This document shows positions 11,025-64,000 of a DNA stretch of 64,000 nt, piece after piece. A program made the translations under genes and the position numbers. The first letter of the stretch is position 1, and each line of letters starts with the position of its first letter. The notes under the pieces are model-generated. The model ran no database searches and was not told the origin of the DNA. It worked only from the letters and a program-made list of their open reading frames with translations. Source of the DNA: a virus; the IMG/VR virus record IMGVR_UViG_3300033148_002122, positions 1 through 64,000 of that record; one strand, 5' to 3'.

Positions 11025-11053
11025 TTGACAAACCAAAGTTGGTGTGATACAAT
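11025..11053 (+). promoter_or_regulatory. perfect-spacing sigma70-like promoter match
   Basis: TTGACA (11025-11030), 17 bases, TACAAT (11048-11053). This is the best sigma70 match noticed in the window. The -10 box overlaps the likely ATG at 11052, so transcripts would start inside the gene and serve genes downstream (11447 onward) rather than this one. It may also be chance within coding sequence. Confidence 0.35.
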
Positions 11054-11432
11054 GAAGATTACTTACATAGGGGTTCCCATCTACTACGCCCCAGTAGAAG
11101 ACTCTACGGCTTTTCTATTTGATTCTACTTTCCACGAACCAGGGAATGAAGTGATTATGGAAAGAAAGACAGCAAAAGCTTTGATGGTTGGTTTTGATGT
11201 CCACGAAGATGGATCTAAGAATATATACAAAATTATTAAGTATAGTGACTACACAGGGCTGGAGCAGGAATGGGGAGACAGTACGTCTGTTACTATATTA
11301 GACACTGCTGTTCAAGATATTGTTGACTTATATTCTGCCAAACGACTAGATCCAGATTCTACAGTTTCGGAAACACCAAGTAGTTACCAAAGAAGTAACA
11401 CACTTGCTAGGAGTTTTACTAAAACAGTATAA
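11052..11432 (+). CDS. small virion-associated protein with DST triplets
   Basis: 126 residues from ATG 11052; TTG 11025 is an alternative that adds nine residues, and neither has a strong Shine-Dalgarno. It contains four Asp-Ser-Thr triplets, a density far above chance. Its first residues (M-K-I-T-Y-I-G-V-P) resemble those of the protein at 39266 (M-K-I-S-F-L-N-V-P), which lies just before the major capsid gene, so it may be a related beta-sandwich virion protein. Function otherwise unknown. Confidence 0.6.
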   Translation: MKITYIGVPIYYAPVEDSTAFLFDSTFHEPGNEVIMERKTAKALMVGFDVHEDGSKNIYKIIKYSDYTGLEQEWGDSTSVTILDTAVQDIVDLYSAKRLDPDSTVSETPSSYQRSNTLARSFTKTV

Positions 11433-11446
11433 GGAAGAAGGATAAT

Positions 11447-12289
11447 ATGCTAAGGATATTGGTTCCATTTTATAATGCTGCTGAAACTTTACCAAGGTTA
11501 ATAGAGAGTTTAGCAGCACAGACAGATCAGAACTTTGATGTATTGTTTTTAGATGATGCGTCTAAAGATGATTCTGGCAAGGTAATACATAACATCATAC
11601 ACGATGATTTTCCATCCTTAAGTTCGAAGGTGGATTATTACAAGAATGATGAAAATATTGGTATAATGTGTAACGTAATTAAAGGTGTTGATCTTACAGA
11701 CGATCACGTAATTTGCTGCATATGCGATGGTGATGATTTTTTATCAGAGGATGCAGTTGAGGTAGTTAGTAAACACTACAGTGAAAACGACATAGACTTT
11801 GCGTGGTCTAACTTTACATTCTATCCTTCTCTACGCCCCGGTTTTTCAAGAGAAATTAATAGAGATATATCTGCTAGGATATTCTATCCATTTTGGTGGA
11901 TGAGTCATATGCGTACATGGAAGGCAGGTACGTTTAAAAAGATCGACTACGAGAAGAAATTTAAGTGGCAGGGCGAGTGGTTTGACTACGCAAATGACTT
12001 AGCTATCATGTTTGCACTTCAGGAAGTAACTGACAAGTATATGTATATTCCTTATCAGCTATACTTTCATGATGTAAGTGAGGGAGAGAATACAACCAGG
12101 AGTCCAGAGAAGAGAGAGAAGCAACTTATAGAAGAAATGCGCATTAGATCTCTAGTCGATGACAAAGATGCACTATTAGCTAACCAGTATTATAGACATA
12201 TAATAGTTTTCTATGAGGGTATAATGGATGCTATTAGTAAGGATGAAAACTTAAAAGGAATACTCAAGGAGAAAGGATTTCCTGTATAA
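11447..12289 (+). CDS. family 2 glycosyltransferase
   Basis: 280 residues, ATG 11447 after GAAGAAGGA. Classic GT2 N-terminus: L-V-P-F-Y-N-A-A-E-T-L-P-R-L, S-L-A-A-Q-T, F-L-D-D-A-S-K-D-D-S-G, then the metal-binding C-D-G-D-D-F. Length covers the GT-A catalytic domain with about 60 extra C-terminal helical residues. No membrane segment, so it acts in the cytoplasm. It is coupled to the methyltransferase-like gene (TAATG overlap), suggesting that one glycan is assembled and then methylated. Confidence 0.85.
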   Translation: MLRILVPFYNAAETLPRLIESLAAQTDQNFDVLFLDDASKDDSGKVIHNIIHDDFPSLSSKVDYYKNDENIGIMCNVIKGVDLTDDHVICCICDGDDFLSEDAVEVVSKHYSENDIDFAWSNFTFYPSLRPGFSREINRDISARIFYPFWWMSHMRTWKAGTFKKIDYEKKFKWQGEWFDYANDLAIMFALQEVTDKYMYIPYQLYFHDVSEGENTTRSPEKREKQLIEEMRIRSLVDDKDALLANQYYRHIIVFYEGIMDAISKDENLKGILKEKGFPV

Positions 12290-13092
12290 TGGGTAGGAAC
12301 ATACTAGAAAACTCCCTGGCTGAAGCTATCAGAGGTATGAAGGCTAAGAGTGTTATTGATGTTGGAGGTGCTTGGGAATCTACAGGACTTGCCACGCATA
12401 TTTTAGATATTGAGCCAAGGAATAATCGGCATAATTTTGCTGATTGGATACAGGGTGATATTTGTCAGAAAGAAACGTGGGACCAATTTGATGATAATCA
12501 GTTTGATTTTGCTATATGTACACAGACTTTAGAAGATATCTATGATCCTATCACAGTGTGTAATGGTTTATCAAGGGTAGCAAGATGTGGCTACTTAGAG
12601 ACACCCTCTATGATAGGTGAAATAACTAGATTCTCAGATAGAAAAAAAGATAATATTGAGGCAGATATTAATGGCTATCTACACCATAGATATATTATTG
12701 AAGTTATTAACGGAACTGATAAAGAGCGCATATCAGTATTACCCGTTGTGAGTCCAGAGTGGAAACCAAAGGGAAAGTTTATTCAATTTGACGATGATGC
12801 TATAATAGTTGCCATACCAAAAACAGCAAGAGTATTGATTAATGATCTACTAAAAAATAATGTAATAGCAGTTGATACTAACAACTGGAATAGAGTAAAT
12901 TTTGTTGGATTATTTTGGAAAGAAAGTATAAAGTGTGTTATGCTAGAAAATGATGCACTTGACTATATTAGATATAAAATACTGGAGATAACTGAACCAG
13001 GATATTTACCTAACTATAATCCTATAAAATTACAGCGCAGGTTTGCCGAAGTTTTTGAACCAGGAGGAAATAATGGGATTTTGGAATCATGA
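12289..13092 (+). CDS. SAM-dependent methyltransferase-like protein
   Basis: 267 residues. The N-terminal half follows a class I methyltransferase pattern: V-I-D-V-G-G-A-W (motif I), I-L-D-I-E-P, W-I-Q-G-D-I-C, F-D-F-A-I-C-T-Q-T-L-E-D-I (motif IV region), then a post-motif strand. Motif I lacks the usual G-x-G-x-G, so activity is not certain. The C-terminal third is unassigned. Location between two glycosyltransferases suggests sugar methylation. It overlaps both neighbours. Confidence 0.6.
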   Translation: MGRNILENSLAEAIRGMKAKSVIDVGGAWESTGLATHILDIEPRNNRHNFADWIQGDICQKETWDQFDDNQFDFAICTQTLEDIYDPITVCNGLSRVARCGYLETPSMIGEITRFSDRKKDNIEADINGYLHHRYIIEVINGTDKERISVLPVVSPEWKPKGKFIQFDDDAIIVAIPKTARVLINDLLKNNVIAVDTNNWNRVNFVGLFWKESIKCVMLENDALDYIRYKILEITEPGYLPNYNPIKLQRRFAEVFEPGGNNGILES

Positions 13093-14200
13093 TCCATCAG
13101 GAACTACTTTAGAGAAATACTACAAGGAACTAAGGAATGATGACACAGGGGCACTAGACTATCCGCAGTCTTTTGTTGATATTATCACACCAAATGCTGG
13201 TGGACTAAAAATGGCAGAAGGTGTGTACAAAGCTTTATGTAGTAAAGGTGATTCTATCAACTGGAGACTATTTCCAGTTTCACAAGGTGATTTTGGGGCA
13301 CATGATTTTTGGGTTAAGACTGCCCAGTTAGATGAGCGTGTATTTCCAATACTAAACGATTGGAACAAACCAGTACCTCATGCGTACAACCAAGCATACA
13401 TGTATAGCATGAAGTTTAAAAATCCATCTCCATTTATATTTACTATGGATGATGACACGCGACTCATCAGGGATGATTGGCTACAGTATTTACTATGGCT
13501 AAGAAATTCTTATCCAGATCCAGAACAGATTGGTATTACCACCTATGGTACATCAGCTATTGGACGTAAACCCCCAGAAGGTAAATTCTGGCTGGAAAAT
13601 GATGTTGGTTGGGATTCTAACCTAATATATAGACCTATATTTGACAGAGTTGGTTTAGCAGATGAAAACTATTGCTGGCATTTTGGTGACAGCGATATAT
13701 GCAGAAGACTTACTCTACATCAAAATTATAAAATTTTGTTAGGGAAACAGGTAAATAAGTGGAGAAGTCATTTTGGCCGTGTTGGATCTAGCCAACTAGG
13801 TTACAAAGAAGCTTGGTGGAGGGGAATGTCTATAGAAGTTGGAGGACAAAAGTGGGCCAATACACCAGTAAAGGGTGTTGGAGCAGAATTAGGGGTTGAC
13901 AAGGTAAGGCAAGAGAGCTATACTTACCCAAAAGAAGGATGGTGGGACGCAGGGCTAGACTTCATGACATTTGACCACGGTATGAAGTGTGAGTCACATA
14001 GTAAGTTTCCTTTCTTTATTGATGACCATCCAGAGGTTTCTTGTACTACACCTTCTACTGACGTAAACTTAAGGGTATACAAGAGATATCGTGAAAAACA
14101 TCCAGACCACAAAGGAATGTATGATGATGTTGTCAGGAGACTCTATAGTATCGAAGGAACAGTTGATGAATTCTTACAGGGTGTACCTGAAGGGTTGTAA
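13073..14200 (+). CDS. glycosyltransferase (GT2-like)
   Basis: 375 residues. ATG 13073 is chosen because CAGGAGG precedes it; an in-frame TTG lies at 13043. F-T-M-D-D-D-T-R (D-x-D metal motif) near residue 125 and D-S-D-I-C-R-R near 205 parallel the donor and acceptor motifs of GT-A enzymes. It is longer than the other GT2 proteins here, with a C-terminal Trp/Tyr-rich extension. It overlaps the start region of the recombinase gene. Confidence 0.7.
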   Translation: MGFWNHDPSGTTLEKYYKELRNDDTGALDYPQSFVDIITPNAGGLKMAEGVYKALCSKGDSINWRLFPVSQGDFGAHDFWVKTAQLDERVFPILNDWNKPVPHAYNQAYMYSMKFKNPSPFIFTMDDDTRLIRDDWLQYLLWLRNSYPDPEQIGITTYGTSAIGRKPPEGKFWLENDVGWDSNLIYRPIFDRVGLADENYCWHFGDSDICRRLTLHQNYKILLGKQVNKWRSHFGRVGSSQLGYKEAWWRGMSIEVGGQKWANTPVKGVGAELGVDKVRQESYTYPKEGWWDAGLDFMTFDHGMKCESHSKFPFFIDDHPEVSCTTPSTDVNLRVYKRYREKHPDHKGMYDDVVRRLYSIEGTVDEFLQGVPEGL

Positions 14201-15005: not shown

Positions 15006-15006
15006 C

Positions 15007-18701: not shown

Positions 18702-19160
18702 ATGGCAGATCCTTTTGACCTTCCAGTACACACCCATGATGATCCTTTTTACGGGTTTGAATCATGGCGACCAGTTCCTGGGGAGGATATTCCTTTCCTA
18801 ACTGATCGTAAAATGATAGAAGTTGTTCAGAAAACGTGGGGACAGGAAGAGATTATAATAAATGGTGATTTATACTGTGGAAAGATTTTAACAATAAGAC
18901 CTGGAGAACATACGTCCTATCATTATCATGCGATAAAGGATGAGACTTTTTATGTACTACAGGGTCAACTTGTTGTCTATATAGGAAATGAGACTCAAGT
19001 AAATAGAGTAATTTGCTTAGAGCCAGGAGAAAAATGGAGAATTAGGCCGGATATCTGTCACACAATTGCCTGCCCAAACAATGGTGTTGATTTAATATTT
19101 TTTGAATTCAGCACACACGATTATGTAACCGACTCCTATAGAGTCAATTTTCCATCATAA
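18702..19160 (+). CDS. cupin protein, sugar isomerase-like
   Basis: 152 residues, ATG 18702 after TTAGGAG. It carries cupin motif 1, G-E-H-T-S-Y-H-Y-H followed by E-T-F-Y-V-L-Q-G, and motif 2, with P-D-I-C-H. These place a metal site in a small beta-barrel. The arrangement resembles mannose-6-phosphate isomerase-type and WbuC-like cupins involved in sugar precursors. With the dehydratase at 851 it could supply mannose or deoxyhexose intermediates, but other cupin functions are possible. Confidence 0.75.
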   Translation: MADPFDLPVHTHDDPFYGFESWRPVPGEDIPFLTDRKMIEVVQKTWGQEEIIINGDLYCGKILTIRPGEHTSYHYHAIKDETFYVLQGQLVVYIGNETQVNRVICLEPGEKWRIRPDICHTIACPNNGVDLIFFEFSTHDYVTDSYRVNFPS

Positions 19161-19455: not shown

Positions 19456-19743
19456 ATGGCTAAGGGACAGAAGTTTGAATACCCTCTTGCGTTTGTAACC
19501 TGGGAGGATGCCTATTCACACGATGATTGGGTTCCTATTGCAGACGCTAGATCCCACACACCCTGCATTGTTCAGAGTGTTGGGTGGTTAGTAGACGAGT
19601 CTGATAGGCACATTACTATTATACAATCTATTACTAGTGACGAAGCTGGAAGTAGAATTACTATCCCTAAAGTTTATATCAAGAACTTAGAAACTCTAAT
19701 GGGTAGTGGAAGGTGGAGAAAAGTAATAAATGAAGACAATTAG
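19456..19743 (+). CDS. conserved-type small protein
   Basis: 95 residues, ATG 19456 after AAGAGG. Predicted beta-rich, with G-W-L-V-D-E-S-D-R-H-I-T-I-I-Q-S, a pattern I associate with short uncharacterised phage proteins, without a known function. It overlaps the next gene by 14 bases and so is probably co-translated with it. Confidence 0.6.
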   Translation: MAKGQKFEYPLAFVTWEDAYSHDDWVPIADARSHTPCIVQSVGWLVDESDRHITIIQSITSDEAGSRITIPKVYIKNLETLMGSGRWRKVINEDN

Positions 19744-21001
19744 TCCATTCTACAACTATTCATATCGTGTTATGCTGTCCAAGCTGATGGATTCTGCTGG
19801 TCATACTATAACATTGAGTGGAGATCATCTTGTCTATATGGTAGCCAAGAGAAATCTTAGTTCATCTAATGAATTATTTAGAATTTATGGGCAGATAATA
19901 GATACAACCACAGGTTACGTATCTTTTCCTCTTTATTACTTTGATAGTACGCACGAACCAGGAACGATCTATGTAGAAGTTAGAGTATCCTACGCAGGTA
20001 CAGAAAGGGTTGCAGGTCAGTACAGGAGTTCAATTGTTCAATCTTTAGGTAGAGCTAGTTTCTATGACATAGATCTTGTCCCACGGTATGATACTCATAT
20101 TATGCTTTATAACAACACACTAGAGGATATAGGTGGAGAACACTTATTAGGTGAGTATGATACGATATTTGTAAATCATGAAAGTTTTAATTACTTACCA
20201 ACGGAATACAGGAATAAAGCTGTTGTCGAATTTTCTTTAATGTCTAACCTCGATTTATTCAAACATGAGATAATAGATGGTGATGAATACGATGACTTTA
20301 TAGACTGTCCAGGTGATCAGGGTATGCCTTCTATAGTAAATGCAGAGGGTGAGTACCTTTACAAGATAGAAGATTCGTGGATGATAGCATTCGTATTCTT
20401 TGTTAGGAGTTTTCTACAAACTTATGGCAATTCCATAAAAGGTATATATCTTAGCAATTTTTATACAGATATGGGAGAGTACTGGATACTAGAGAATGGG
20501 AATGACTTAGTAGTTTGGCCTGATAGAACAGATGACGCTGGTGACTTAGTTCCTGATTGGAACCTGTCAAGACTCCAGTTTATAGAGTCGTTTATTACTG
20601 ATGATATGGATTTGTACACTAATAATGGCATATTAGTTGTTGGAGGCTCAGTTAGAGAGCTTAGTGACACAAAGAGAATGGCTATTAATACTAGCGTTTC
20701 TGGCCCAGTTAATCATAAAGAGTTATTTGAGCGTATTGAGGACGATGGGCTAACCTACCCTGATTACTACGCGCAGTCTGGAGATTTTATTCAAATAAGT
20801 GGTTTGGATTCTACAGGTCTGTACGGACTATGGGCAGACAATGAGTATGGTGAAGGACAAGTTAATCTTGAGAGAGCGTCTAGGGTATGTATTGGAAGAC
20901 TCTGTTCTCTTGGATTGGCTTATGGTGAGACTCCAGATCTGGGTGAAGGTCTATATAGTATAGTACTAGACCCAAGGAGTCCAAGGTGGTATAATTATTA
21001 A
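19730..21001 (+). CDS. glycosidase-like (GHL TIM-barrel) protein
   Basis: 423 residues, ATG 19730 with GGTGGAG upstream. An N-terminal beta-sandwich (about 1-115), with F-D-S-T-H-E-P-G-T, precedes a barrel-like region. Residues 238-244 (G-I-Y-L-S-N-F), then N-G-I-L-V-V-G-G, G-D-F-I-Q-I-S-G and S-L-G-L-A-Y-G-E-T-P align in order with G-I-F-L-D-D-F, D-G-K-M-I-V-N-G, G-D-Q-L-L-V-Y and S-V-G-V-G-Y-A-V-T-P in the protein at the right edge of the window. Both look like glycoside-hydrolase-like barrels. Here the catalytic D-D is replaced by S-N, so the domain may bind rather than cut sugar. Confidence 0.55.
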   Translation: MKTISPFYNYSYRVMLSKLMDSAGHTITLSGDHLVYMVAKRNLSSSNELFRIYGQIIDTTTGYVSFPLYYFDSTHEPGTIYVEVRVSYAGTERVAGQYRSSIVQSLGRASFYDIDLVPRYDTHIMLYNNTLEDIGGEHLLGEYDTIFVNHESFNYLPTEYRNKAVVEFSLMSNLDLFKHEIIDGDEYDDFIDCPGDQGMPSIVNAEGEYLYKIEDSWMIAFVFFVRSFLQTYGNSIKGIYLSNFYTDMGEYWILENGNDLVVWPDRTDDAGDLVPDWNLSRLQFIESFITDDMDLYTNNGILVVGGSVRELSDTKRMAINTSVSGPVNHKELFERIEDDGLTYPDYYAQSGDFIQISGLDSTGLYGLWADNEYGEGQVNLERASRVCIGRLCSLGLAYGETPDLGEGLYSIVLDPRSPRWYNY

Positions 21002-25427: not shown

Positions 25428-26000
25428 ATGGCTGCTACAGTCGAAATTCATAGTTTTCCGAGTGGATCTGGTGCAGATATTTCTAACGGAAACGTTAGAT
25501 TTAAGCTAGCTGATAATGATACAGTGGATACTGACAATCCATGTCGTATTCCTACAGCGGATCAGGTTAATAACGAGGAAATCCCAACAACTTATTCATA
25601 TATTAAACACTTTAAACTGTACATTGCTACTGATCCCACAACTGCAATTTCTAATCTGAGGTTCTTTGTTAAGCAAACAGAGATAGGAACTGGAATTTAT
25701 TTGTTTGGTGATTCAACAAGTGTTGATCATAACCCACCAGCTAGTGCCGATAGTACAGGTGACACCACTTGTACGTGGTCGCTTATTAGCGGAGGTGCTA
25801 CACACGTTTGGAGTCCTGCATCTCCACAGGTTGTTCAGGCTGGTGATGTACTCACTAATGGTAACGCACCAGAGTACGATGATGCGGCTGAACAGGATTT
25901 TGTTACACTTCAGTTGATGATAGATGATAGTGCATCACCTGGAACTTATCCTGCTGCTGAAGATGATGGTGTATTTACTTATCGTTACGATGAGAACTAA
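25428..26000 (+). CDS. putative minor virion protein (DST-containing)
   Basis: 190 residues, ATG 25428 after GAGAGG. Beta-rich, Asp/Thr/Ser-rich, acidic; two Asp-Ser-Thr triplets (F-G-D-S-T-S-V and S-A-D-S-T-G-D). No Cys-rich or enzymatic motifs. Its position after terL and before a beta-helix appendage suggests a head- or tail-surface protein. Followed by a palindrome. Confidence 0.6.
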   Translation: MAATVEIHSFPSGSGADISNGNVRFKLADNDTVDTDNPCRIPTADQVNNEEIPTTYSYIKHFKLYIATDPTTAISNLRFFVKQTEIGTGIYLFGDSTSVDHNPPASADSTGDTTCTWSLISGGATHVWSPASPQVVQAGDVLTNGNAPEYDDAAEQDFVTLQLMIDDSASPGTYPAAEDDGVFTYRYDEN

Positions 26001-27935: not shown

Positions 27936-28316
27936 ATGCCATTGTCAGACTTCTATGCAAAAAGCTACATAAAAAAACAAGAGTGCCCTGTCTGTAAAGA
28001 CGCAGGGCACGATTGCTTTGTAGATGAGGATGGACACTGGCCTATTCTTGGTTGGGTAATTTTTTACGGTGATGGACAGTTTTATACTAGCAAAGAATAC
28101 TCTGTGGAAGATCTTCCGTGTGAAGATGTACAAATTATAAAAGTATACATACAAAAAGAAGGTAAAGTTAGAACAATCATAGACTTAGGAGAAGATGATT
28201 ATCAACTTCCTGGGAGTGACAGAATATTATATGGCAGGTGGCTTGGTAGCCTAAAATATCCAGAAGCATATAAGTATATTACTCACTTGGCACTCAAACA
28301 TGAGTGGGTGGAATAA
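27936..28316 (+). CDS. hypothetical protein
   Basis: 126 residues, ATG 27936 after TAGGGG. One Cys pair (C-P-V-C) with a further Cys near residue 26 and several aromatic residues; predicted mixed alpha/beta. Stop codon TAA overlaps the ATG of the giant repeat protein by one base, so expression is coupled. No function assigned. Could assist folding of the repeat protein, by context only. Confidence 0.6.
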   Translation: MPLSDFYAKSYIKKQECPVCKDAGHDCFVDEDGHWPILGWVIFYGDGQFYTSKEYSVEDLPCEDVQIIKVYIQKEGKVRTIIDLGEDDYQLPGSDRILYGRWLGSLKYPEAYKYITHLALKHEWVE

Positions 28317-32584: not shown

Positions 32585-32934
32585 TGGGCTATCGTACTTC
32601 TAAAATAAGAGAAATTACTGATATATATCAGCATACTACTCCTCTCTTCAGATTTACTATAAATCATGATGGTACTAGTGTTGTGTTGGGTAATCTAATG
32701 ACAGTGAGATTTATTGGGAAGCCACATATTGATTCAAATCATACGTTATGGGACGCCTCTTGTGCCATAGTTGACTCTACGAGGGGAATGTGTGAATGCC
32801 GCCTGTCATTAACTGATACCACAGATTCTTATCACAATATGTACGGAGAGCTAAGGTTTGAAGACCACACAATACAAACAAGTGAAGTAGTTAATCAGTA
32901 TAAATTTGACCTTCTAGAGTCTCTTGGTGGCTAG
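32584..32934 (+). CDS. beta-sandwich protein, BppU-like
   Basis: 116 residues from GTG 32584, overlapping the upstream stop. The pattern P-L-F-R-F-T-I-N-H-D-G...L-G-N-L-M-T-V-R-F-I-G resembles the N-terminal Ig-like domain of phage baseplate upper proteins that anchor fibres. One DST and one DTT triplet. It could link the repeat adhesin to the virion. Similarity is by pattern only. Confidence 0.5.
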   Translation: MGYRTSKIREITDIYQHTTPLFRFTINHDGTSVVLGNLMTVRFIGKPHIDSNHTLWDASCAIVDSTRGMCECRLSLTDTTDSYHNMYGELRFEDHTIQTSEVVNQYKFDLLESLGG

Positions 32935-45360: not shown

Positions 45361-45412
45361 GGGGGGATCCTTCGTTTTTGATTGTCAAGAACGTATGGAC
45401 CCCCCATTTTTT
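45361..45412 (+). terminator. terminator-like stem with T6 run
   Basis: GGGGGG (45361-45366) and TCC (45368-45370) pair with GGA (45397-45399) and CCCCCC (45400-45405), one bulged A, with T6 at 45407-45412. The loop is long (26 bases). Just upstream, TATTCCTA (45322-45329) can pair with TAGGAATA (45334-45341), while AAAAGTA (45330-45336... partly the same strand) can pair with TACTTTT (45354-45360), so alternative folds exist. It lies between major tail and chaperone genes and likely lowers expression of the latter. Confidence 0.65.
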
Positions 45413-45434
45413 ATATTGGAAATGGAGGCTGGGA

Positions 45435-52703: not shown

Positions 52704-55700
52704 ATGTCTGATACAAAGTATAGTCTAACTGATACCACTAATCCTTATGGTTTTAAGGGTGTTCTAGGAACGGGGGTTGGTAGGCACAGTGTATCTAGGT
52801 ATGATAAATTCTTGCCTAGTGATAGGAATTTTTTAGAAGAAGTTATTACTGAAATTCGTAGGGAATTATCTACTCAAATTAGTGACACTACTTCTCTTCA
52901 TCAACAAATAACCCAACAAGTATATGTTCCTAATACTAAGACATCTGCTGTTAACGTTAACTACTTGCCTGTAGATTTTAGAGCAGCGGGTGAGTATAAA
53001 CCTACTAATAGCCTTGATGGTCCTCTTGAGTTAAAATATGAAGGGTATATTAATAGAGTAATTGTACACCGTAATACACCTGGAATTGATGGCACAACAG
53101 CGATTAACGTTAAGATAGATGGAACAAGTATTTTGGATGGACTCATAACTATAGGATCTGATGAAACAGCAGCAACAGTAGTTACTGATTTTACATCAAC
53201 ATACTACGAAATTGATAGCAATCTAACGGTTGATATTATAGATGTTGAGGCAAATGCATCCGACCTAATGGTTACTGTTGAGCTAGCTTTTCCATTCCAG
53301 TCTAATGTATTTCTAGCTAATTTTTCACTAACAGGCAGAGGAAGTATAACTGAGAATCTAGATGGTTTCTTCATAGTACCATTCGAATCAGAGTGGAAAT
53401 ATTGGCAAGGAGTTACTGATTCTACTAGCTTAGGTCAGTACAGCATTACTGCCCATAGACTGGATACAACTACTAGTGCCGGTCCAACAACTTTTCCTGC
53501 TCCTGGTGAAGCTAGTGCTAGTTTGAATGAAAACAGGATACAACCTGGGGAACTATTTAGTGTGTCTGTTAACGAGGTTCCTTCTTCCGGTGAAGATATG
53601 AGGGCAACACTTACGTTTAATAGAAGAATACCAGAGTACTATGCTATAATGGATTTTCAGGCGATGGGTAATTACTATGTAACAGAGAATGCTGATATAG
53701 CTCGATATATTCCAGAAAATATAACAATTAAGGATGTATACCTAACTAGATCAACCGGAGGAACAGATAATACATCTGTTTTCACACTTAATGATGATGG
53801 TGTTGAGATAGCTAGGGTATACATTGACAGCAGTACGGCTATTTATGATAGTACAGGTTGTCATGTTTCACCAGAAGTTGAGGTGGCTGCTGGGTCTTAC
53901 CTAACGCTTGATATTATTGGTGTTGAGGATGGGGTGCCATCAGACGCAAGATGTATGGTTGTATATGATGTATCAATACCAACCACACCAATAGGTTTAG
54001 CCGATTCAACAGAAACGGCAGAACTTAGAAATAGCTTTATTTCACTGGACAGCAGTGTTGCAGACATATCGACTCATCTTGGTCTAGTTGATACTACAGC
54101 TTCAAACACACTGGCTAGTCTTAATAGTATTGATAGTACAGTAAGTGATATACTTAGTAGACTAACTTTACTAGATACTACAGCGTCCCAACTAACTGAT
54201 GAATACCTGGAGTTGGACGCTACTGTAGACTATATATTATATAATCAGTTGCTAAACAACAACTTATTGATTCAGTTTGGTAATGACCTAGATAGTTTTG
54301 ATAGTACTTTGGCTGAGATGTCTGTAGGTCTTGGTATTTTTGATAGTACTATATCAGAGATGTCAGATAAAATTATTGAAATAGATAGTACAGCTTCTGA
54401 GATATCTTCTAGAATAAATATAATAGATAGTACTACTGCTGAAATGTCTATAAAACTTATAGCACTAGATAGCACTGTATCTGAGTTATCTGCTGTAGTT
54501 GGTGACACACCTGAATATGATTATGTTGACCTAGACACATCGTATGGAAAACCTGTCCATCAACCTGGAAGGTTATTCTGGGATGACGATAATAAAACTG
54601 TTGCGATGTACACTGATAGTACTGAGGTTACACTACAGATAGGACAAGAGGATTGGACTCGGGTTAAAAACGAAACAGGGAATACTATTGTTAATGGCAG
54701 GGCAGTAAATGTTGTTGGAGTAAATGGTAACGGCATACCTCTAGTTGATTTCGCACACGCAGGTGATAGTACATACAATCATTGTCATGGCCTAATGACT
54801 CACAATCTTGAAACTGGTAACATAGGTTATATGGTATCTCGCGGTATTATCCATGATATTGATACTTCTTGGCTTTCTGCTGGTGATCCTCTTTATCTTT
54901 GTGATTCTACGGCTGGTCTGTACGGAACTACTATACCAACTGCTGCTGCGTCTGCTATACAGGAGATTGGTGTTGTTTTAGAATCAGGTGTTTCTGGATC
55001 TGCTCTAGTACATCCACACGCACCATCTAGAAATTCAGAACGAGCATTTGAAAGATCTTGGGCTATAACAAGTCTCAGTGGTGCGTCTGGAGACTACTAC
55101 TTTGGTGGATTTTACAAACACGGTGGTACTCACGATGATTTTAGTGGAGTAGTTAACTTTGGAAGTGCTAACGTATCGTATGCTGCACATTTCTTTGTTG
55201 TTCTTGGTGCCTCTACTGTTGATGAGTTAACAATACATGTCACTGGAACATCTATAAACGACAACGGTGACAGAGCTACTAGTGACACTGAAGATATTGT
55301 AATTCCAACACTAACTTCTGTTAATGCATATTTCGAGACTAGTAAGAAGTGGTTAGGTCAAATTTCTGTAACTGTTACAGGTGGAACAGCGAAAGATTGT
55401 AATTATGGGTTCTCCAAATATTGGGATAACAATAATAACGCATTCCAACTAATAGGTCTTGAAGTAACGGGGTTAGCTGGAGCGTCAGATACTGGTATAG
55501 AAATAAGATTGATTCATCACACTAGCTCTGGATGGACGTATAACGCAGGAAGTTCCGCTGTACCCGCAGTCTTGGCATCAATGTCTACTGACCACTCAAC
55601 AGAGAGTAGGGTAGCTTCGGGTGAGGAATTTGCATGGAAACGTTCTAACTTAGATACGTCTGTAGCTGGTGGAGATTCTGAAGGAACAATCTTTTTTATT

Positions 55701-55775
55701 ACTACCACGGTTAACGATGCCGTTGAAGTTGGAACAGCAATGATTAGAATTATTACGGATATTACTAGCCAATAA
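52704..55775 (+). CDS. tail fibre / tail tip protein with DST-capped coiled coil
   Basis: 1,023 residues, ATG 52704 after AAGGGAG. N-terminal virion-binding part (1-100), two beta-sandwich repeats (about 100-220 and 220-430, both containing F-P or A-N-F-S-L-T-G-R-G elements), then residues 434-602 of 14-residue coiled-coil repeats starting D-S/T-T. C-terminal beta domains follow (G-R-L-F-W-D-D-D-N-K-T-V-A-M-Y, H-G-L-M-T-H-N). About 12 DST triplets. Most likely a trimeric fibre. It follows the tape measure, where distal tail or tip proteins lie. Confidence 0.7.
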   Translation: MSDTKYSLTDTTNPYGFKGVLGTGVGRHSVSRYDKFLPSDRNFLEEVITEIRRELSTQISDTTSLHQQITQQVYVPNTKTSAVNVNYLPVDFRAAGEYKPTNSLDGPLELKYEGYINRVIVHRNTPGIDGTTAINVKIDGTSILDGLITIGSDETAATVVTDFTSTYYEIDSNLTVDIIDVEANASDLMVTVELAFPFQSNVFLANFSLTGRGSITENLDGFFIVPFESEWKYWQGVTDSTSLGQYSITAHRLDTTTSAGPTTFPAPGEASASLNENRIQPGELFSVSVNEVPSSGEDMRATLTFNRRIPEYYAIMDFQAMGNYYVTENADIARYIPENITIKDVYLTRSTGGTDNTSVFTLNDDGVEIARVYIDSSTAIYDSTGCHVSPEVEVAAGSYLTLDIIGVEDGVPSDARCMVVYDVSIPTTPIGLADSTETAELRNSFISLDSSVADISTHLGLVDTTASNTLASLNSIDSTVSDILSRLTLLDTTASQLTDEYLELDATVDYILYNQLLNNNLLIQFGNDLDSFDSTLAEMSVGLGIFDSTISEMSDKIIEIDSTASEISSRINIIDSTTAEMSIKLIALDSTVSELSAVVGDTPEYDYVDLDTSYGKPVHQPGRLFWDDDNKTVAMYTDSTEVTLQIGQEDWTRVKNETGNTIVNGRAVNVVGVNGNGIPLVDFAHAGDSTYNHCHGLMTHNLETGNIGYMVSRGIIHDIDTSWLSAGDPLYLCDSTAGLYGTTIPTAAASAIQEIGVVLESGVSGSALVHPHAPSRNSERAFERSWAITSLSGASGDYYFGGFYKHGGTHDDFSGVVNFGSANVSYAAHFFVVLGASTVDELTIHVTGTSINDNGDRATSDTEDIVIPTLTSVNAYFETSKKWLGQISVTVTGGTAKDCNYGFSKYWDNNNNAFQLIGLEVTGLAGASDTGIEIRLIHHTSSGWTYNAGSSAVPAVLASMSTDHSTESRVASGEEFAWKRSNLDTSVAGGDSEGTIFFITTTVNDAVEVGTAMIRIITDITSQ
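54003..54509 (+). repeat. 14-residue coiled-coil repeats, DST at each start
   Basis: Twelve consecutive units, e.g. D-S-T-L-A-E-M-S-V-G-L-G-I-F and D-S-T-I-S-E-M-S-D-K-I-I-E-I. One 28-residue unit equals two periods. Hydrophobic residues fall at positions 4, 7, 11 and 14 (3-4-3-4 spacing), as in two heptads. DST lies at helix positions where it could serve as a cap or modification site. Confidence 0.9.
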
Positions 55776-55784: not shown

Positions 55785-56378
55785 ATGACAACTTTTTATA
55801 CGCTCGATTCTAGAGCTAAAATAATTCAAGTGCAGGACAGCACAGGAGGAGATCCTTGGGATTCGACTAGCTGGCCTGAAGAAGATTCTACCAGTACCCA
55901 AGAGTCAACTTTTACTATAGAGGGGCACAGGGATAACGTACCCTACGCTGCCGAACCGTTTGATTCTACGGCTGTTTGGGAGCAACTACCTTGTATCTTC
56001 CAGTGTCCATCAGGGCATGTTGCGTATATTACTTCAGCAACACTTCTCTATTGGGTAGCTGATGCCGATGGTCAAAATTATGGTTCTGGAGACAGTACTT
56101 TCGGGTGGAGGGGTTTTGCAAACTTTAGATTCTACACAACGGGTATGCCACTAGATACCACTTCATCAGTATGGGCACCAACAAACGTGTTCCTGCCTGT
56201 GGTATGCAGTCAGGACAATCCTTATGGAAGTAAAACATGGCATTTCACAGATGCAGCCCAGCCATTAAATAGACCATTACGTGCAGGAGAGTCACTTGAT
56301 TTGCGAGTTCGTCCACATGATGGTCCTATAAATCACTGTCAGGCAATTTTTACTGGATATTTAGTAGCGGAAGCGTAA
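55785..56378 (+). CDS. tail-associated protein rich in DST
   Basis: 197 residues, ATG 55785 after AAGGAG. Five Asp-Ser-Thr triplets; beta-rich with many Trp and Phe residues (W-H-F-T-D-A-A-Q-P-L, F-R-F-Y-T-T-G-M-P). Lies between two fibre genes. May be a beta-sandwich head of a fibre. Function unknown. Confidence 0.6.
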   Translation: MTTFYTLDSRAKIIQVQDSTGGDPWDSTSWPEEDSTSTQESTFTIEGHRDNVPYAAEPFDSTAVWEQLPCIFQCPSGHVAYITSATLLYWVADADGQNYGSGDSTFGWRGFANFRFYTTGMPLDTTSSVWAPTNVFLPVVCSQDNPYGSKTWHFTDAAQPLNRPLRAGESLDLRVRPHDGPINHCQAIFTGYLVAEA

Positions 56379-56395: not shown

Positions 56396-59296
56396 ATGTA
56401 TAACAATTGGTATGGTGAGACTGATTCTACTGTTTTGCTAGGGAATATCAGAGATGAAAATCCAGCACTTGGTGTTTCAGGTACTGTAGCTAACACGGAC
56501 TTCTTTGCTACCTATATTGGTCAGCCACTTATTGATTTGGCTACGGTATTAGGTCCATCACCCTCACACGCCGCAAGCAATATTTATCGTGCTGGTGGCC
56601 GTGGTGGATTTCCACTAATACAGATTCCTTCTACATCTCCAGAAATTACTAATGATACTGATAACAGATACTGTCAGTACGAAGAGGATATTGAATCTCT
56701 ATTTACTACGGCAGATATTGGTAACGGAGATCAAATACTTGGGTCGTTTGCAGTAAGGTTTGAGGGCGTAGATTTCTTTGCAGAATGGAGTAATCTTACA
56801 GCGTATGAAACTGACAATGGTAAGTACGCAGTACATGTTGATAGAGAAAATCCAAATAGATCTTTTGGAACTATACCAAACTTCAATCTTACAGGATCTG
56901 ATTCATCTAATTTTGAAGTATACTTTGAAAGAGGAGCAAGTGGTGGTGGGTCAGGACTTGCTGGTAATACTATAGTATTTGGTCCTTCTGGATCAGGCGC
57001 AGATTATTCTGATTGGAATACCATGCTTGCTTCTATTGAAACAAGTCTTGACTCTACTAATCAGTATACTGTGTATGTGATGCCAGGGTTTTATGAAGTT
57101 TCAGATGCTACATGGAGTATTTTTGACATTAATGAGTATGATGGGTCAACATATAAACGAATGTTCTTTAAGAATCGTGTACCATCGTATCTTCATGTTG
57201 TAGGATTAAATAAAGATAGTGTTATATTTAATCTATCAACTAATTATTTTAATAATGCACATAAACATGGATCGCCAACTTTGGATTCAACTACAGGAGG
57301 AATTAATCCGTCTGTATTCTTTGCTTCTCAATTTAGTTCTGTATCAAATCTAACAATTAAGGTTAACAACGAATACGTTGCTCCTCCACCAGATTTTTTA
57401 CTTCCAGTTCCAATAGCTTTTTATCCTGATTCTTCTACTGCCTATGTTAGTTATTTTGAGGATTTTTTAGATATAGATTATGATAATTATATAGGAGCAA
57501 CAGAGAGAAGTCCAGCCAAACTATTAAACTTGTTCTTATTCAGAGGAGAGAACATAAACTTTGTTGTTAGTGGCTGGGGGAATTCAAACTCATGTGTATT
57601 TGCTGGTCATCACCGTTCAGCAGGATTAGTATCATCACAGGAAGCAGATTACCCAAAATCTATTTATGACATCTTTCTTCTAGAAGGTGTTGATGTTTGG
57701 AGTAACTCATTTTTCTATTTTAACAGATGTAGTGTTAAAGATTCTCAGCAAGGTAAAGTTGGATTTGGACTTAACTACCATGATACAAACGGAATTAGTT
57801 CTAATGGTGAGACATTTTCTGCAAGCTATTGTAATCTTATAGTTGATAGTCTGTACTACGAGTTTGATATGATATTACCGGAAACAGAACATGCTGATTC
57901 TACGCACGGATGGGTTGTACCAAGTGCAAAGAAATTTGTAGTCAAGGTTGGTAAAGGTAGTATACCCTACGTAAAGATATTTAATAATTCTGTATTTACA
58001 GCTCCTAATTGTTTTGTTCCTAGTTCTGATTCAACATATCATCTTGGAAACAAGTTTAGTTTTTCATATACGGCACATATCCTAGATGGTTGGGAAAGTA
58101 ATGAAGAAGTTTACCAACAGTATAGTGATTTTCCGTGTTTAGTATACGTTTCTAGCAACAATCAAATTGATCTATACTCTAATGACTTTAACAGAAAGTC
58201 TATACATTTTAATAACTGTGAGTTCAGAGTTACAGGACTAAATCACCCACAGCTTGGTAATGATAACCTTATTGATGGTGGAATAGGGGATATCCCCTAT
58301 GTTGATACAACCGACTATATTTCTGAATTTTGTGTTGGAGTTAGTAGTCTTGGAGATGTAGACCTTGTATTTAACGGATGTAGATTTGAAAATCATATTG
58401 ATTCTCCTTATTCTGGTTTGTTTGTAATAGGGTCAGACGCGAAGGTTTCCACTTCATTGGATTCACTACCTATGCTAAACGAAGTACACCTTAATAACTG
58501 TACTGGAGAATCTATTGGCTACGGATTATTTAGTGTTTGTACTGGAAAAATAGAATCTATTGAGAGCTTTTATTCTAGGATTAACATATCTGGTGGAAGT
58601 TATACCTCATATAAATCTCCTATTGTAAAAACTACACACAGAAATTGGGAGTACAACAGTTATAGCCCTGTAGACTATACAGGATTAAGAGTATACTCAA
58701 ATGGTACAATATTTAGATACGCACCAGGACCACTGATTACAGGAAGTCTACACACTAACGCAAGAAACGCTGCACCACTATGGCTTGATACAACTACTGT
58801 GGGTGGTGTATTTGAGTTTGACACTACTACTGATATGGCTGTATTTGAGAACTGTTCATTTGGAACACCAAGTCTTAAGAATTATGCTGATATTGGTTAC
58901 TTTGCGGCTCCAGGCGTATGGCTTGGTCTTGATAAAGACTTGGTTTCCGTGGATAAGAACTATCAATTCGGAAGCATATTTATGTTTTATCAGGATAGCA
59001 CATCCTGGTCTGAGGAGAGATTCCAGTTTAGTAACTGTACTTTCTCTAGCGGTATAATACCTCCGTTCAGATTAAACACAATATACTCCAAAGGAGATTT
59101 TGCTCCAGCACTTGTATCTGGATGTAGATTTTTTACTGATTCAACTATGAGCGATCTAATGTCAGAGAATTTATTAAACATAGATTCTGGTATAATAGGT
59201 ATAACGACATACGACACGACTGATTTGGAAGTTACTGTGGATTCTAACTCTTATAACCCCTTGTATATAAGGCATTATCCACGAATCTGGAGATAG
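56396..59296 (+). CDS. beta-helix tail fibre/tailspike protein
   Basis: 966 residues, ATG 56396 after AAGGGGAG. The middle and C-terminal parts have many short strand-turn units with Asn/Gly/Ser-rich turns (V-F-N-G-C-R-F-E-N, H-F-N-N-C-E-F-R-V, F-S-N-C-T-F-S-S-G), the stacked N-N-C-x-F ladder of right-handed beta-helix. N-terminal 180 residues are probably virion-binding. Seven DST triplets. Likely binds host surface polysaccharide; no catalytic residues assigned. Confidence 0.7.
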   Translation: MYNNWYGETDSTVLLGNIRDENPALGVSGTVANTDFFATYIGQPLIDLATVLGPSPSHAASNIYRAGGRGGFPLIQIPSTSPEITNDTDNRYCQYEEDIESLFTTADIGNGDQILGSFAVRFEGVDFFAEWSNLTAYETDNGKYAVHVDRENPNRSFGTIPNFNLTGSDSSNFEVYFERGASGGGSGLAGNTIVFGPSGSGADYSDWNTMLASIETSLDSTNQYTVYVMPGFYEVSDATWSIFDINEYDGSTYKRMFFKNRVPSYLHVVGLNKDSVIFNLSTNYFNNAHKHGSPTLDSTTGGINPSVFFASQFSSVSNLTIKVNNEYVAPPPDFLLPVPIAFYPDSSTAYVSYFEDFLDIDYDNYIGATERSPAKLLNLFLFRGENINFVVSGWGNSNSCVFAGHHRSAGLVSSQEADYPKSIYDIFLLEGVDVWSNSFFYFNRCSVKDSQQGKVGFGLNYHDTNGISSNGETFSASYCNLIVDSLYYEFDMILPETEHADSTHGWVVPSAKKFVVKVGKGSIPYVKIFNNSVFTAPNCFVPSSDSTYHLGNKFSFSYTAHILDGWESNEEVYQQYSDFPCLVYVSSNNQIDLYSNDFNRKSIHFNNCEFRVTGLNHPQLGNDNLIDGGIGDIPYVDTTDYISEFCVGVSSLGDVDLVFNGCRFENHIDSPYSGLFVIGSDAKVSTSLDSLPMLNEVHLNNCTGESIGYGLFSVCTGKIESIESFYSRINISGGSYTSYKSPIVKTTHRNWEYNSYSPVDYTGLRVYSNGTIFRYAPGPLITGSLHTNARNAAPLWLDTTTVGGVFEFDTTTDMAVFENCSFGTPSLKNYADIGYFAAPGVWLGLDKDLVSVDKNYQFGSIFMFYQDSTSWSEERFQFSNCTFSSGIIPPFRLNTIYSKGDFAPALVSGCRFFTDSTMSDLMSENLLNIDSGIIGITTYDTTDLEVTVDSNSYNPLYIRHYPRIWR

Positions 59297-59299: not shown

Positions 59300-62200
59300 A
59301 TGAATAAACTTTCCTTTAAGTTATCTAGAAGAATAGACATTAATAGAGATTCACAATTTATTAAGTGTGTTGAAACCCATAGTCTAGATAATACTATATA
59401 TTATGAATTTTCTTACACTGAATCTAGTAGTGAGTATAGTTGGGCGTATAGATACATAGAGGTAAAGGATAGTAACGTAGAAATTTCCATAAATAAATTA
59501 CTTGAATTTAGTCTTATAGAGAGTGCTTCAATAGTAAATACTAATGACGAAATGCTAGATATATCAGATAACGTTATAGCAGGGAGATGTCTCAGAACAT
59601 GCTCTGGTCTTGCTGGTCAATACTGGGATGCCGCAGATATCTGGGGTGCTGGGTATGCCCAGGCTGTAACAGATTCGTCTGCTATGTTTTGTTTTAATCT
59701 AGTTGCAGGCTGCGCTGGTACTTCTTCTTCCAGTTACATAACAGGGTTAGTAGACTCAACCGTAACATTTATTGCTGGGTTTAGGGATCCGTTCTATACC
59801 CCTGAACAATTAACTGATTCAACCCATTATTTAGAACGTGCGGTATACTTCCCAACTAGATCTGTTGCACCAAATCATTCACTACAAAGGTATAAGGTTA
59901 GTGGAGTTGAATCGAGGGTTGAAGCCAATATACTATATATAGCTGCTGAACTTACGGAGGATGATGATACTGTGTTGTCTTCTACTGACGCACTATATAA
60001 TCTTGGTATTAGATCAGGTATAGTATCAGATGGTATTCCAAATACAATATTTATAGCCGGAATTTGTCATCATCTACACTGGTCAGCAAATAGTATTGAT
60101 GGCTTGTGTATAGACGCTGATTACGAAAAGGGTGAGATGTTTATACCGGGAACTTCTGTTAGGTCTAACTCTCTGGGGTGGAATATTGATGGTGTACAGG
60201 GTAAATCTGTAGGTATAGGTCAGAGTGATTCTACCGTAAATGTTGGTTTTGAGTTTGATGGTCTTACGTCTTATCCAGTTGAGCGATCAAGAATGGTGTT
60301 TGGGTCACAAGAAGGGAGTGGAATAGGTTTATTCCATCCAGATCTTGGTGGTGATGGTGATTCCACTCATGGTGTCTATCTGTATAACTTAGGATTAAAT
60401 TCTGTTTTTGTTAATAATGCTAGAAAAATTCTTTACGGCGATGACTTACTAGGTTATACTGGACAGGGTTATAGCAGAGAACATGTGGAGGATTGGTCAA
60501 TAGACGCAGGTAGTTCTTTTCATGTTATGAAAGTGTTTGGCATTGTTGGTGGAAGATGGAACGATAGCGGAACCCTTGGTGTAGCTCCTGGTTGTCATAT
60601 GGACCCAGAATGTGTTAGAGGATATATCTTTGAATTAGTTGACTATGGCGTTGCTGACGTATATTCTTACTCACTAGAAAGTTCTTACCTATCAGACTAC
60701 GGCACATTAACCTTTTATGATGTTGTTGGAGACACTGGTGCATACCCTATAGGGTCTGTAGCTAACTCCCTAACCGCTGGATACGCTGCTTCTAATGATG
60801 CTTGGTATCTTGTACCAGCATTTGGTAATGGTGGACACTACATTAATTTTGATTCTGAAATAATAGGTATAAGTGCATTTTCTGTTTGGGACGGGACTAG
60901 TCCTGTGTATTCACACGGAGAGGCATTAACTTTTGTTTCTCCAGTACCTCAGTTAATTGCAGGTCCATACTATGATCCTAATGGTGCTACATTATTTGAT
61001 AGTCATAGTTATGGTGAGTACGCAGGGCAGAGTTGTGCAACTCCTGCCGCTGCTGGTGGTATGTTATTATTAAAAGAGGCTAGACCAGAGCTATCTTATT
61101 TTGAGGCAAAGAATGTGCTTGCTAGTTCTTGTAGAAAGTTTCCAGACATGACTGCCGAATCTGAGAATTGGCATCATCAGTTTGGTTATGGTAGACCGGA
61201 TATGCTAGCAGCGTTTAATACAGATACAACAGAAACACCTTGTGCCCCACCAAGGGGGTTAATTGTTGATGGTGTTGGGAGAGATACACTGCTTTTTAGG
61301 TGGACAAACCCACACTACAAGCATTTTGAAAAAGTAAAGATATTAAGAAAAGATGCTTTAGATCCAGGTACGTATGATACTTTTGCAAATTTACATAGTC
61401 TTTCTATCGAAGAACAGCCAGAAGGCATAGGCCAAGAAGAAAGTTTAGAATGGGTTGACACAATAACAACTTCCCCTCTTGGGTTGTCTGTTACCGATAG
61501 TACCTACTTTGGTAAAGTCCAACTGTATTTTGATTTTTGGGGCAGCAGCAGTTACATCAGTACGTTTAGTCACAATGGCATGGCCGAGTGGAATACCACG
61601 TACTATGATTTAATAAGCGCACCTGGAGATACTACGAGTAATGATTTCCCAACGGGTATGCCAGAAGTTTATTTCAATTATGGTGGAACCGCACATGCTG
61701 CTATGTATGTTATTGATTCTACTGGTGACTGGTTTGGCTACTTCATAGACCACATCCGCACAACCTGTGAGTACTTCTACGATCAAGGCAATCCCTTGTA
61801 TGGTATTTTCCTTGATGATTTTGCTAATGTTATTAGTTGGTCCTACATTGTTGGTCCTGAGAAGACAAAAACATATGATCGTAATGGCGCACAAAATGAT
61901 AGTTCTCATATATTCATAACTTGTCCCGAGTTATGGAGTTACTACATGGCTAGTGACTACTATCCGATATGGGGTGATGATAACTGGGAAGAAATGACCA
62001 AAACTGAACAGAAAGTTGTTACGATTCAGTGGTACTATGGTGTAATGAATGTCCAAATGGAGAGTCTAGAGCAGCAAGTGTGGGATATTATTAATAATTA
62101 TTGTATACCTGACGGAAAGATGATTGTTAACGGTATTGGTAGAAGGCTCGATGAGATAGGAGGGGGCCACCCCACGTATGGGAATTGGGTTCCAAGATAC

Positions 62201-64000
62201 GGAACAACTAGGTTGTTCGAAGCCGCTGCCGAATTTGGTTATTCAAATCTTGAGGACATGGTTGGGGATGATGGTACAGGGAGTGATTACTACAAATCTA
62301 GATATTGCCACCCAGGTGATCAACTTCTTGTTTATTGCTTAGGCCCATCAAGAACATGGGGTGACTGGTCAGATGACTCGTTTGGTGAAGGTGAACGCAA
62401 CTTACAACTTATTGCTGAGTTAGCAGAGAAAAGAAATGCATCGGTTGGTGTAGGGTATGCCGTAACCCCCTTTGATGGTGGAACAAGGCTTAGTGCTTTG
62501 TTTGATCCTAATGATGTAGATGACAGATGGCCTGGGTACATAAGTCCTAATACTTATATGACTAACCACACAGACGGGGATATAGTTTATGAGGGAAATG
62601 CTAGTTTAGCTACTGATTCTCCAGACACTGGTGACTACAGATATTATATTTTTTCAAAAGATGTATGGGAAAACTGGAGTAGTAGTGGTATTGAGTTCGC
62701 ATTTCCTTCAGCAAGAAAAGAAACAGAAGTAACATTCACTGTTTCTAGTTATTCTTTTTACTATGGAAGCATTATTATATACGGGACGTTATCACCAGAA
62801 ACGGACTTTGATATTGATCCTGCAAATGGTGAAACATTCTATAATGATTCAACAGCAGTTCCACCACTTAGCCCCGGAGGTTTACCACATGGTTCTGGGT
62901 GGTATCTTGAAGGAAGTAGAGCCAGAGAAATATACCCAATACGCTATATAAAAATGTATGGCGAAGGCGACACAGATAGAGGCAAAGTAGAATACGTATC
63001 AATAACAGATAACTACATAGATAGCGATACTCTGTATGAAGGATTGGTTCTTAACTTTAAATATTTATCATTAAATGTTGGAAATACTAATGCGCTTGAA
63101 CCTCATAAAGTAAGAACTATTGAGGATATTCCATATCCAAAACCAGATATTAATGTTGGTAAAAATACGTGGCATACTACCTTTGATCCCTATGTAGATG
63201 CTACCGCTGTTTATGATAGCATAGAAAAATCAATTCAATTTTATATTGGGAATATTAGAAACCCAATGGGTATCACAGATATTGAAATCTATAGGTATGA
63301 CGGAGAGAATCCAACAGATTCAGACTGGCCTGAAAGAGCTACCTATACACTTGGCACTGATTCTACATCCATACACACATTCAAAGAAGTTTCGAACTAC
63401 TTGCCTATAACTAGCTATAAAATTGTTCCTATTTCTGTCTATGGAGTTGAATCGTCTGAGCCTTTTTATCTTCTTAACATTACAACTAATCCGATTAACC
63501 CACCAAGTGTAGAAAGTGGTGGTGTATTCGCAAATTTTGCGTCACTAATTAATATGTCTCATGGATATGATAATGACATAATTTTTAACGTTAGAAAAAA
63601 TGGTACTAACTATGCTACTGGAGTATTATCATCCAATAAGATAACTACGTTCTATGATATTTTTTGGCAAGAGGGTGATACATACGATATAAGAGCATAC
63701 TACGATGGTTATTGGAGTGAGTACTCCGTAGTAATCGAACCTGTATGGGCAGGTATACAGACCGCTAATACTAACTTAGGTATTGAAGATGTGTATGATC
63801 ATGTAACGCTTGGTAATAGTACGTGGGATAATTATTTTGATGTTAACTTTAACCTACAGTTTACTGCCGCTACTAATAAGTTAGGAACATTTAAAATAGG
63901 CCAACCCGTGTGGTCTGGAACTGTTGGTGGATTCCAGTATAGAACAGTTGTTGTTCCTCTTTCCTACGGAGGTAAAACACAAGAATCTGCGTTAGCGGTT
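59300..64000 (+). CDS. giant tail protein: subtilisin-like protease, FN3 and glycosidase-like domains (3' truncated)
   Basis: ATG 59300 after CTGGAGA, open through the window end (1,567 codons seen). Residues about 250-610 are a subtilase: catalytic His408 in F-H-V-M (the usual H-G-T altered), G-V-A-P-G-C, oxyanion Asn510 in F-G-N-G-G, and catalytic Ser578 in G-Q-S-C-A-T-P-A-A-A-G. An FN3-like domain lies near 650-730. Residues about 770-1,050 contain G-I-F-L-D-D-F and match the gene at 19730 in order of motifs. At least eight DST triplets. It probably processes tail proteins or cuts host surface material. Confidence 0.75.
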   Translation, partial: MNKLSFKLSRRIDINRDSQFIKCVETHSLDNTIYYEFSYTESSSEYSWAYRYIEVKDSNVEISINKLLEFSLIESASIVNTNDEMLDISDNVIAGRCLRTCSGLAGQYWDAADIWGAGYAQAVTDSSAMFCFNLVAGCAGTSSSSYITGLVDSTVTFIAGFRDPFYTPEQLTDSTHYLERAVYFPTRSVAPNHSLQRYKVSGVESRVEANILYIAAELTEDDDTVLSSTDALYNLGIRSGIVSDGIPNTIFIAGICHHLHWSANSIDGLCIDADYEKGEMFIPGTSVRSNSLGWNIDGVQGKSVGIGQSDSTVNVGFEFDGLTSYPVERSRMVFGSQEGSGIGLFHPDLGGDGDSTHGVYLYNLGLNSVFVNNARKILYGDDLLGYTGQGYSREHVEDWSIDAGSSFHVMKVFGIVGGRWNDSGTLGVAPGCHMDPECVRGYIFELVDYGVADVYSYSLESSYLSDYGTLTFYDVVGDTGAYPIGSVANSLTAGYAASNDAWYLVPAFGNGGHYINFDSEIIGISAFSVWDGTSPVYSHGEALTFVSPVPQLIAGPYYDPNGATLFDSHSYGEYAGQSCATPAAAGGMLLLKEARPELSYFEAKNVLASSCRKFPDMTAESENWHHQFGYGRPDMLAAFNTDTTETPCAPPRGLIVDGVGRDTLLFRWTNPHYKHFEKVKILRKDALDPGTYDTFANLHSLSIEEQPEGIGQEESLEWVDTITTSPLGLSVTDSTYFGKVQLYFDFWGSSSYISTFSHNGMAEWNTTYYDLISAPGDTTSNDFPTGMPEVYFNYGGTAHAAMYVIDSTGDWFGYFIDHIRTTCEYFYDQGNPLYGIFLDDFANVISWSYIVGPEKTKTYDRNGAQNDSSHIFITCPELWSYYMASDYYPIWGDDNWEEMTKTEQKVVTIQWYYGVMNVQMESLEQQVWDIINNYCIPDGKMIVNGIGRRLDEIGGGHPTYGNWVPRYGTTRLFEAAAEFGYSNLEDMVGDDGTGSDYYKSRYCHPGDQLLVYCLGPSRTWGDWSDDSFGEGERNLQLIAELAEKRNASVGVGYAVTPFDGGTRLSALFDPNDVDDRWPGYISPNTYMTNHTDGDIVYEGNASLATDSPDTGDYRYYIFSKDVWENWSSSGIEFAFPSARKETEVTFTVSSYSFYYGSIIIYGTLSPETDFDIDPANGETFYNDSTAVPPLSPGGLPHGSGWYLEGSRAREIYPIRYIKMYGEGDTDRGKVEYVSITDNYIDSDTLYEGLVLNFKYLSLNVGNTNALEPHKVRTIEDIPYPKPDINVGKNTWHTTFDPYVDATAVYDSIEKSIQFYIGNIRNPMGITDIEIYRYDGENPTDSDWPERATYTLGTDSTSIHTFKEVSNYLPITSYKIVPISVYGVESSEPFYLLNITTNPINPPSVESGGVFANFASLINMSHGYDNDIIFNVRKNGTNYATGVLSSNKITTFYDIFWQEGDTYDIRAYYDGYWSEYSVVIEPVWAGIQTANTNLGIEDVYDHVTLGNSTWDNYFDVNFNLQFTAATNKLGTFKIGQPVWSGTVGGFQYRTVVVPLSYGGKTQESALAV

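Follow-up and report, generated by a model that had tools for sequence, protein, structure and literature searches.

D-[S/T]-T, a protein-level tripeptide signal on appendage-type proteins of a tailed phage and candidate glycosylation sequon

Results

The tripeptide Asp-Ser-Thr (DST) is far over-represented in a set of appendage- and surface-type proteins of a tailed phage, and position-by-position enrichment defines the word as D-[S/T]-T, with serine preferred about 3:1. Because a dozen unrelated, probably surface-exposed proteins share the word and the phage has genes for making and attaching sugars, the word is most likely an address for coating the virus particle, probably with sugars. On balance we favor reading it, with some reserve, as a modification sequon, most likely for O-glycosylation by phage-encoded glycosyltransferases.

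The window covers bases 1 to 64,000 of the 116,752-base IMG/VR record IMGVR_UViG_3300033148_002122. The record is that of a tailed phage, judging by its terminase and portal-like genes. Genes were taken from a greedy longest-ORF set, which is uncurated. All eleven DST-bearing genes singled out in the original prediction are present, and are listed here with the giant repeat protein.

11052..11432, plus strand: small protein of 126 aa, 4 DST (p 1.4e-5)
19730..21001, plus strand: 423-aa protein, 2 DST and 1 DTT
25428..26000, plus strand: 190-aa protein directly after TerL, 2 DST and 1 DTT
26431..27870, plus strand: right-handed beta-helix protein (weak Pfam Beta_helix match, below cut-off), 4 DST and 1 DTT
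28304..32584, plus strand: giant repeat protein of 1,426 aa, 66 DST
32584..32934, plus strand: 116-aa protein, 1 DST and 1 DTT
39266..39832, plus strand: 188-aa protein within the head gene block, 3 DST (p 4.6e-5)
43926..45320, plus strand: 464-aa protein upstream of presumed tail chaperones, its position suggesting a tail tube, 2 DST and 2 DTT
52704..55775, plus strand: tail-fibre-like protein, 12 DST and 5 DTT
55785..56378, plus strand: 197-aa protein, 5 DST and 1 DTT (p 3.7e-7); structure prediction uninformative (pLDDT 38)
56396..59296, plus strand: 966-aa protein, beta-helix-like by reading and matching no family, 7 DST and 4 DTT
59300..64000, ending at record position 64435, plus strand: 1,711-aa protein with a weak subtilase-like stretch, 8 DST and 2 DTT

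Gene order and folds indicate that these proteins probably sit in the virion. In the same region, the frames at 45378-46420, upstream of the tape measure, overlap and resemble a tail-chaperone pair produced by frameshifting.

The eleven proteins hold 50 DST in 5,892 residues, close to the estimate by eye of about 50 in about 5,700. Shuffling within proteins, the control proposed with that estimate, leaves the count far above the null: 3.7 are expected (mean 3.73, sd 1.92, maximum 11 in 1,000 shuffles), rather than the two or so predicted from composition. First-order Markov resampling, under which the elevated frequencies of DS and ST are preserved, yields 14.1 (sd 3.7, maximum 27). Taken singly, nine of the eleven exceed chance at p < 0.02, the exceptions being 32584 (p 0.08) and 43926 (p 0.07). 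DTT, which the original prediction had not mentioned, is likewise enriched in the eleven (18 against 3.3).

Since the eleven had been picked for holding DST, the record-wide figures are the unbiased ones. All predicted proteins other than the giant contain 57 DST, against 11.6 expected (maximum 23 in 1,000 shuffles), and the remaining proteins of the record (29,563 residues) contain 7 against 7.9, which is chance. With repeat contexts collapsed, DST is the most over-represented tripeptide of the record (z 13.0; next is AAA at 5.3). In segments of Che8, crAss001 and Stills the same statistic tops out at 4.9-5.4, and in 42 IMG/VR loci at 8.0; these comparison sets are few and unequal in size and serve as a yardstick rather than a survey. 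As predicted, the 2,089-residue tape measure (46423-52692) and the presumed capsid protein (39851) have no DST; the portal (34514) also has none, and the protein at 9522 shows no enrichment. The proteins at record positions 64976 and 70072, both large and probably from the distal tail, hold one DST each and are not enriched, so the tag is no general property of large structural proteins.

The specificity of the word is narrow. Among all 20 residues that could precede ST in the eleven proteins, only Asp is enriched (50 observed, 3.7 expected; Glu 2/2.5, Asn 1/2.7, Ser 5/4.5), and Asp is enriched before both ST and TT. After DS only Thr is enriched: DSA (2/2.5), DSI (1/2.8), DSL (2/2.9), DSV (1/2.9) and DSS (6/4.1) all occur at chance. 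Between Asp and Thr, Ser (50/3.7) and Thr (18/3.3) predominate, followed by Ala (6/2.3) and Gly (6/3.2), which are slightly high. In the record as a whole DST alone occurs 57 times, and the five alternative arrangements of the three residues occur 55 times between them. At position -1 charged residues are avoided (2 against 9.6).

Codon use at the 50 sites follows that of the same genes (GAT 0.78 against 0.74, TCT 0.40 against 0.35, AGT 0.34 against 0.29, ACA 0.36 against 0.36), and the sites use 23 different 9-mers in which both the TCN and AGY serine families occur. The five other reading frames of the eleven genes contain 4 DST altogether. Background codon use together with both serine families places selection on the protein, as the observation that codons vary had been taken to mean. 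Residue specificity and codon neutrality together bear out the view of DST as a protein-level, sequence-specific signal on appendage-type proteins.

Two proteins show the word in regular arrays. The giant contains 62 units of 14 aa, of the form xDST[G/A]SYSxxLxxx, in which D, S, T and two further serines are invariant; up to six serine codons are used, and neighbouring columns vary. The units were selected by their DST; nearly all spacings (57 of 65) are exactly 14, so few DST-less units can have been passed over. An AlphaFold2 model of low confidence (pLDDT 54) makes each unit one strand and places DST in the inter-strand turns. Outside the repeats, residues about 215-430 of the giant (28304-32584) resemble, on inspection by eye, a lectin domain of concanavalin/laminin-G type and have no Pfam match.

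In the fibre (52704), residues 430-612 are a series of 14-aa units in which D-S/T-T occupies heptad positions e-f-g. Counting from the Asp, hydrophobic residues lie at offsets -1, 3, 6, 10 and 13, which is a heptad pattern. Read off that pattern, the stretch appears coiled-coil-like, with the serine at the exposed f position. The inter-strand turns of the giant and this coiled-coil-like stretch do not fit a single structural role. The C-terminal domain of the fibre (residues 781-1017; window 55044-55754) has no DST. It is 44-56% identical to domains in eight otherwise different IMG/VR contigs, whose DST excess is at most about twofold; to judge from these matches, it is a module widely exchanged among unrelated phages.

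The phage encodes at least four glycosyltransferases, together with nucleotide-sugar enzymes, and two of the transferases adjoin DST genes. Most of the names below fall under curated NCBIfam cut-offs and hold at the family level.

794..1846, plus strand: nucleotide-sugar 4,6-dehydratase of the GDP-mannose type, clearing the Pfam cut-off and falling short of that of NCBIfam
7398..8201, plus strand: GT2-family glycosyltransferase
8194..9192, plus strand: NAD-dependent sugar epimerase/dehydratase
11447..12289, plus strand: GT2-family glycosyltransferase, directly after DST protein 11052; GalT1 (5hea) is its best match among solved structures; role putative
12289..13092, plus strand: methyltransferase-domain protein, after the GT2 gene
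13073..14200, plus strand: possible glycosyltransferase of GT-A type, going by an MDDDTR motif seen by eye; it matches no family and no PDB entry
18702..19160, plus strand: cupin, mannose-6-phosphate isomerase C-terminal-like
33460..34521, plus strand: GT4-type (GT-B) glycosyltransferase of 353 aa in the structural operon, preceded by the giant and 32584 and followed by the portal; role putative
record 76805 and 91864: further possible glycosyltransferases
record 77443: nucleotide-sugar dehydrogenase
record 80866: GT4-type glycosyltransferase
record 89053: heptose-kinase-like protein
record 96236: RmlD-like protein
record 97113: PseC/ArnB-like aminotransferase

The two transferases beside DST genes show weak matches to glycosyltransferases whose known members have Ser-rich proteins as substrates (SdgB, GalT1). 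For GT4 33460 the match to SdgB is confined to the donor domain, residues 195-329. A Pfam scan finds GT1-type domains only, and the DUF1975 acceptor/dimerisation domain is absent; at 353 aa, against about 505 aa for SdgB, the protein has no room for it. A thymidylate-synthase-type gene (PF00303), the mark of canonical DNA glucosylation, was not found in the record, which may be incomplete.

Among the other genes, record 76805-81765 is a cluster of GT-like, nucleotide-sugar dehydrogenase, B12-binding radical SAM, NAD-synthase-like and GT4-type genes. Two genes at record 104535-107897 have signal-like N-termini, one of them being heparinase II/III-like, and possibly encode exported polysaccharide-degrading proteins. 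The gene at 14091-15005 looks tyrosine-recombinase-like by eye, so that the phage may be temperate or may invert DNA.

By these comparisons the virus is without a close relative in the collections searched, IMG/VR and INPHARED. TerL matches INPHARED phages of Bacillus, Microcystis, Staphylococcus and others at only ~24-29% identity; GT2 11447 has distant matches only; and portal, giant, distal-tail, 43926, 56396, 59300, 13073 and GT4 queries have none. Queries of IMG/VR with TerL, the presumed capsid, the fibre, the distal-tail protein and GT4 returned no relatives, save through the fibre C-terminal domain, and neither collection yielded a relative bearing the DST pattern. Two scans for DST-codon-dense contigs gave 70 stretches in which in-frame DST lies nearly always in one tandem-repeat protein; in none of the 70 is DST spread over many proteins. 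A third scan, for DSTGSYS, found seven isolated occurrences. Several IMG/VR contigs (L012, L018, L020, L024, L033, L041, L044 and others) carry a long tandem repeat, DWDSTYTSVSETSA, in one DST-dense protein, with no DTT excess and no spread to other proteins.

Discussion

It is possible to sketch how such a system would work. D-[S/T]-T would mark a chosen set of appendage and surface proteins for sequence-specific modification, and soluble phage glycosyltransferases would put the first sugar on the Ser or Thr after Asp in the cytoplasm of the infected cell. Further phage glycosyltransferases may lengthen the glycan, with nucleotide sugars supplied by the dehydratase, dehydrogenase, aminotransferase and epimerase genes of the phage. 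The finished fibres, spikes and giant repeat protein would then bear a dense glycan coat. The plausibility of DST as a modification sequon, suggested from the outset, is strengthened by the residue specificity, by the differing structural settings of the word, and by the glycosyltransferase and nucleotide-sugar genes. The full scheme, a phage-encoded cytoplasmic O-glycosylation with a strict D-[S/T]-T sequon on chosen virion proteins and the giant as a dense glycan scaffold, we advance tentatively, as somewhat short of probable.

The nearest known systems each share part of this pattern. Bacterial O-glycosylation mostly proceeds without a sequence motif, and Bacteroidota are the one exception known; their motif is D-S/T-[L/I/V/T/A/S...], and only noncytoplasmic proteins are modified (PMC12871550). 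Transfer in that pathway is periplasmic, from a lipid-linked glycan. The phage word resembles that system in being a true sequence motif, with Asp before the Ser/Thr acceptor, Ser favored over Thr, and Thr tolerated afterwards; it differs in ending in Thr only, and in lying on proteins for which synthesis and assembly presumably take place in the cytoplasm. SdgB and SdgA are the O-GlcNAc transferases of staphylococcal Ser-Asp-repeat adhesins, and SdgB modifies a minimal DSD peptide (PMC8561734). There, as may be the case here, a soluble GT-B enzyme acts on Ser beside Asp in long surface-protein repeats; the phage GT4, however, is ~150 aa shorter than SdgB with a weak donor-domain match only, and the phage word ends in T rather than D. 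Glycosylation of serine-rich-repeat adhesins offers a further parallel through GalT1, the best solved match of GT2 11447, at the family level only, although the phage proteins are not Ser-rich-repeat adhesins. In mycobacteriophages, as the work of Freeman et al. 2023 is cited in PMC12619734 and PMC12691614, structural proteins of the virion are glycosylated, the glycans being reported on the C-terminal ends of the capsid and tail-tube subunits. Those phages likewise encode glycosyltransferases; here the tag is a dispersed tripeptide in appendage-type proteins with none in the presumed capsid. No precedent for a phage O-glycosylation sequon was found in the open-access literature searched.

The sequence signal does not specify a chemistry, and the word might serve a host-made or other modification such as phosphorylation, with the sugar genes of the phage acting elsewhere, for example on the host surface. 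Phage glycosyltransferases often target host polysaccharide; GT2 and GT4 are broad families, and these genes could instead build or alter it. No protein kinase was matched among the proteins scanned, which were a part of the record's set, and the phage carries a wide range of sugar genes, including two glycosyltransferases that adjoin DST genes, so that we consider this reading unlikely, though still deserving of weight. One host-made version, in which the Bacteroidota general O-glycosylation system modifies the sites (the original prediction had noted that DST fits its sequon), we judge very improbable. DST and DTT do lie within the published motif (PMC12871550), yet L, I, V and A, which more often follow the acceptor, show no enrichment, DSS is also at chance, and the substrates of that system are noncytoplasmic (PMC12871550), whereas phage particles assemble in the cytoplasm. 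A crude motif count, made without a shuffled control, finds Shine-Dalgarno-like sites at 35 of 71 larger genes. Frequent sites of this kind are atypical of Bacteroidota. A weaker pointer in the same direction is that none of the 80 best RecA matches (~60% identical) is from Bacteroidota.

Other readings dispense with modification. D-S-T favors beta-turns and caps and might be kept for folding or trimerisation; in the giant, DSTG would suit a type I turn, the model (pLDDT 54) puts it between strands, and the two further Ser columns of the giant are equally invariant. Against such a role, the turn-equivalent NST, DSD and DSS are not enriched (DSN slightly, 5/2.4), G follows only 6 of the 50 dispersed sites, and the same word occurs inside the coiled-coil-like stretch, all of which makes a structural motif rather improbable. 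A docking word bound by a partner, such as a receptor, assembly factor or protease, would explain why surface-type proteins carry so strict a linear motif; more than 100 copies, with 57 regular 14-residue spacings in one protein, would suit coating better, and there is little likelihood of docking. Chance, shared ancestry or the spread of DNA-level repeats is the least credible account. Tandem repeats do make up the giant and a stretch of the fibre, but once repeats are collapsed and the giant is set aside DST still stands at 53 against 10.9, in 16 proteins; 43 DST are present with the fibre coiled coil left out; and the sites use 23 different 9-mers, have unrelated flanks and show background codon use. 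Shuffles, collapsed counts and codon use rule out chance, DNA-level repeats, and codon or out-of-frame artefacts.

If D-[S/T]-T does direct glycosylation by the phage, a viral system would join Bacteroidota as the second sequence-motif exception in bacterial O-glycosylation. The short word might offer a compact tag for protein glycoengineering, a tripeptide excess across unrelated structural proteins would provide a statistical test applicable to other genomes, and the coats of uncultured phages would become predictable from sequence. It would also follow that phages can evolve a modification code of their own, written in a short word that is open to any surface protein and read by enzymes of the phage.
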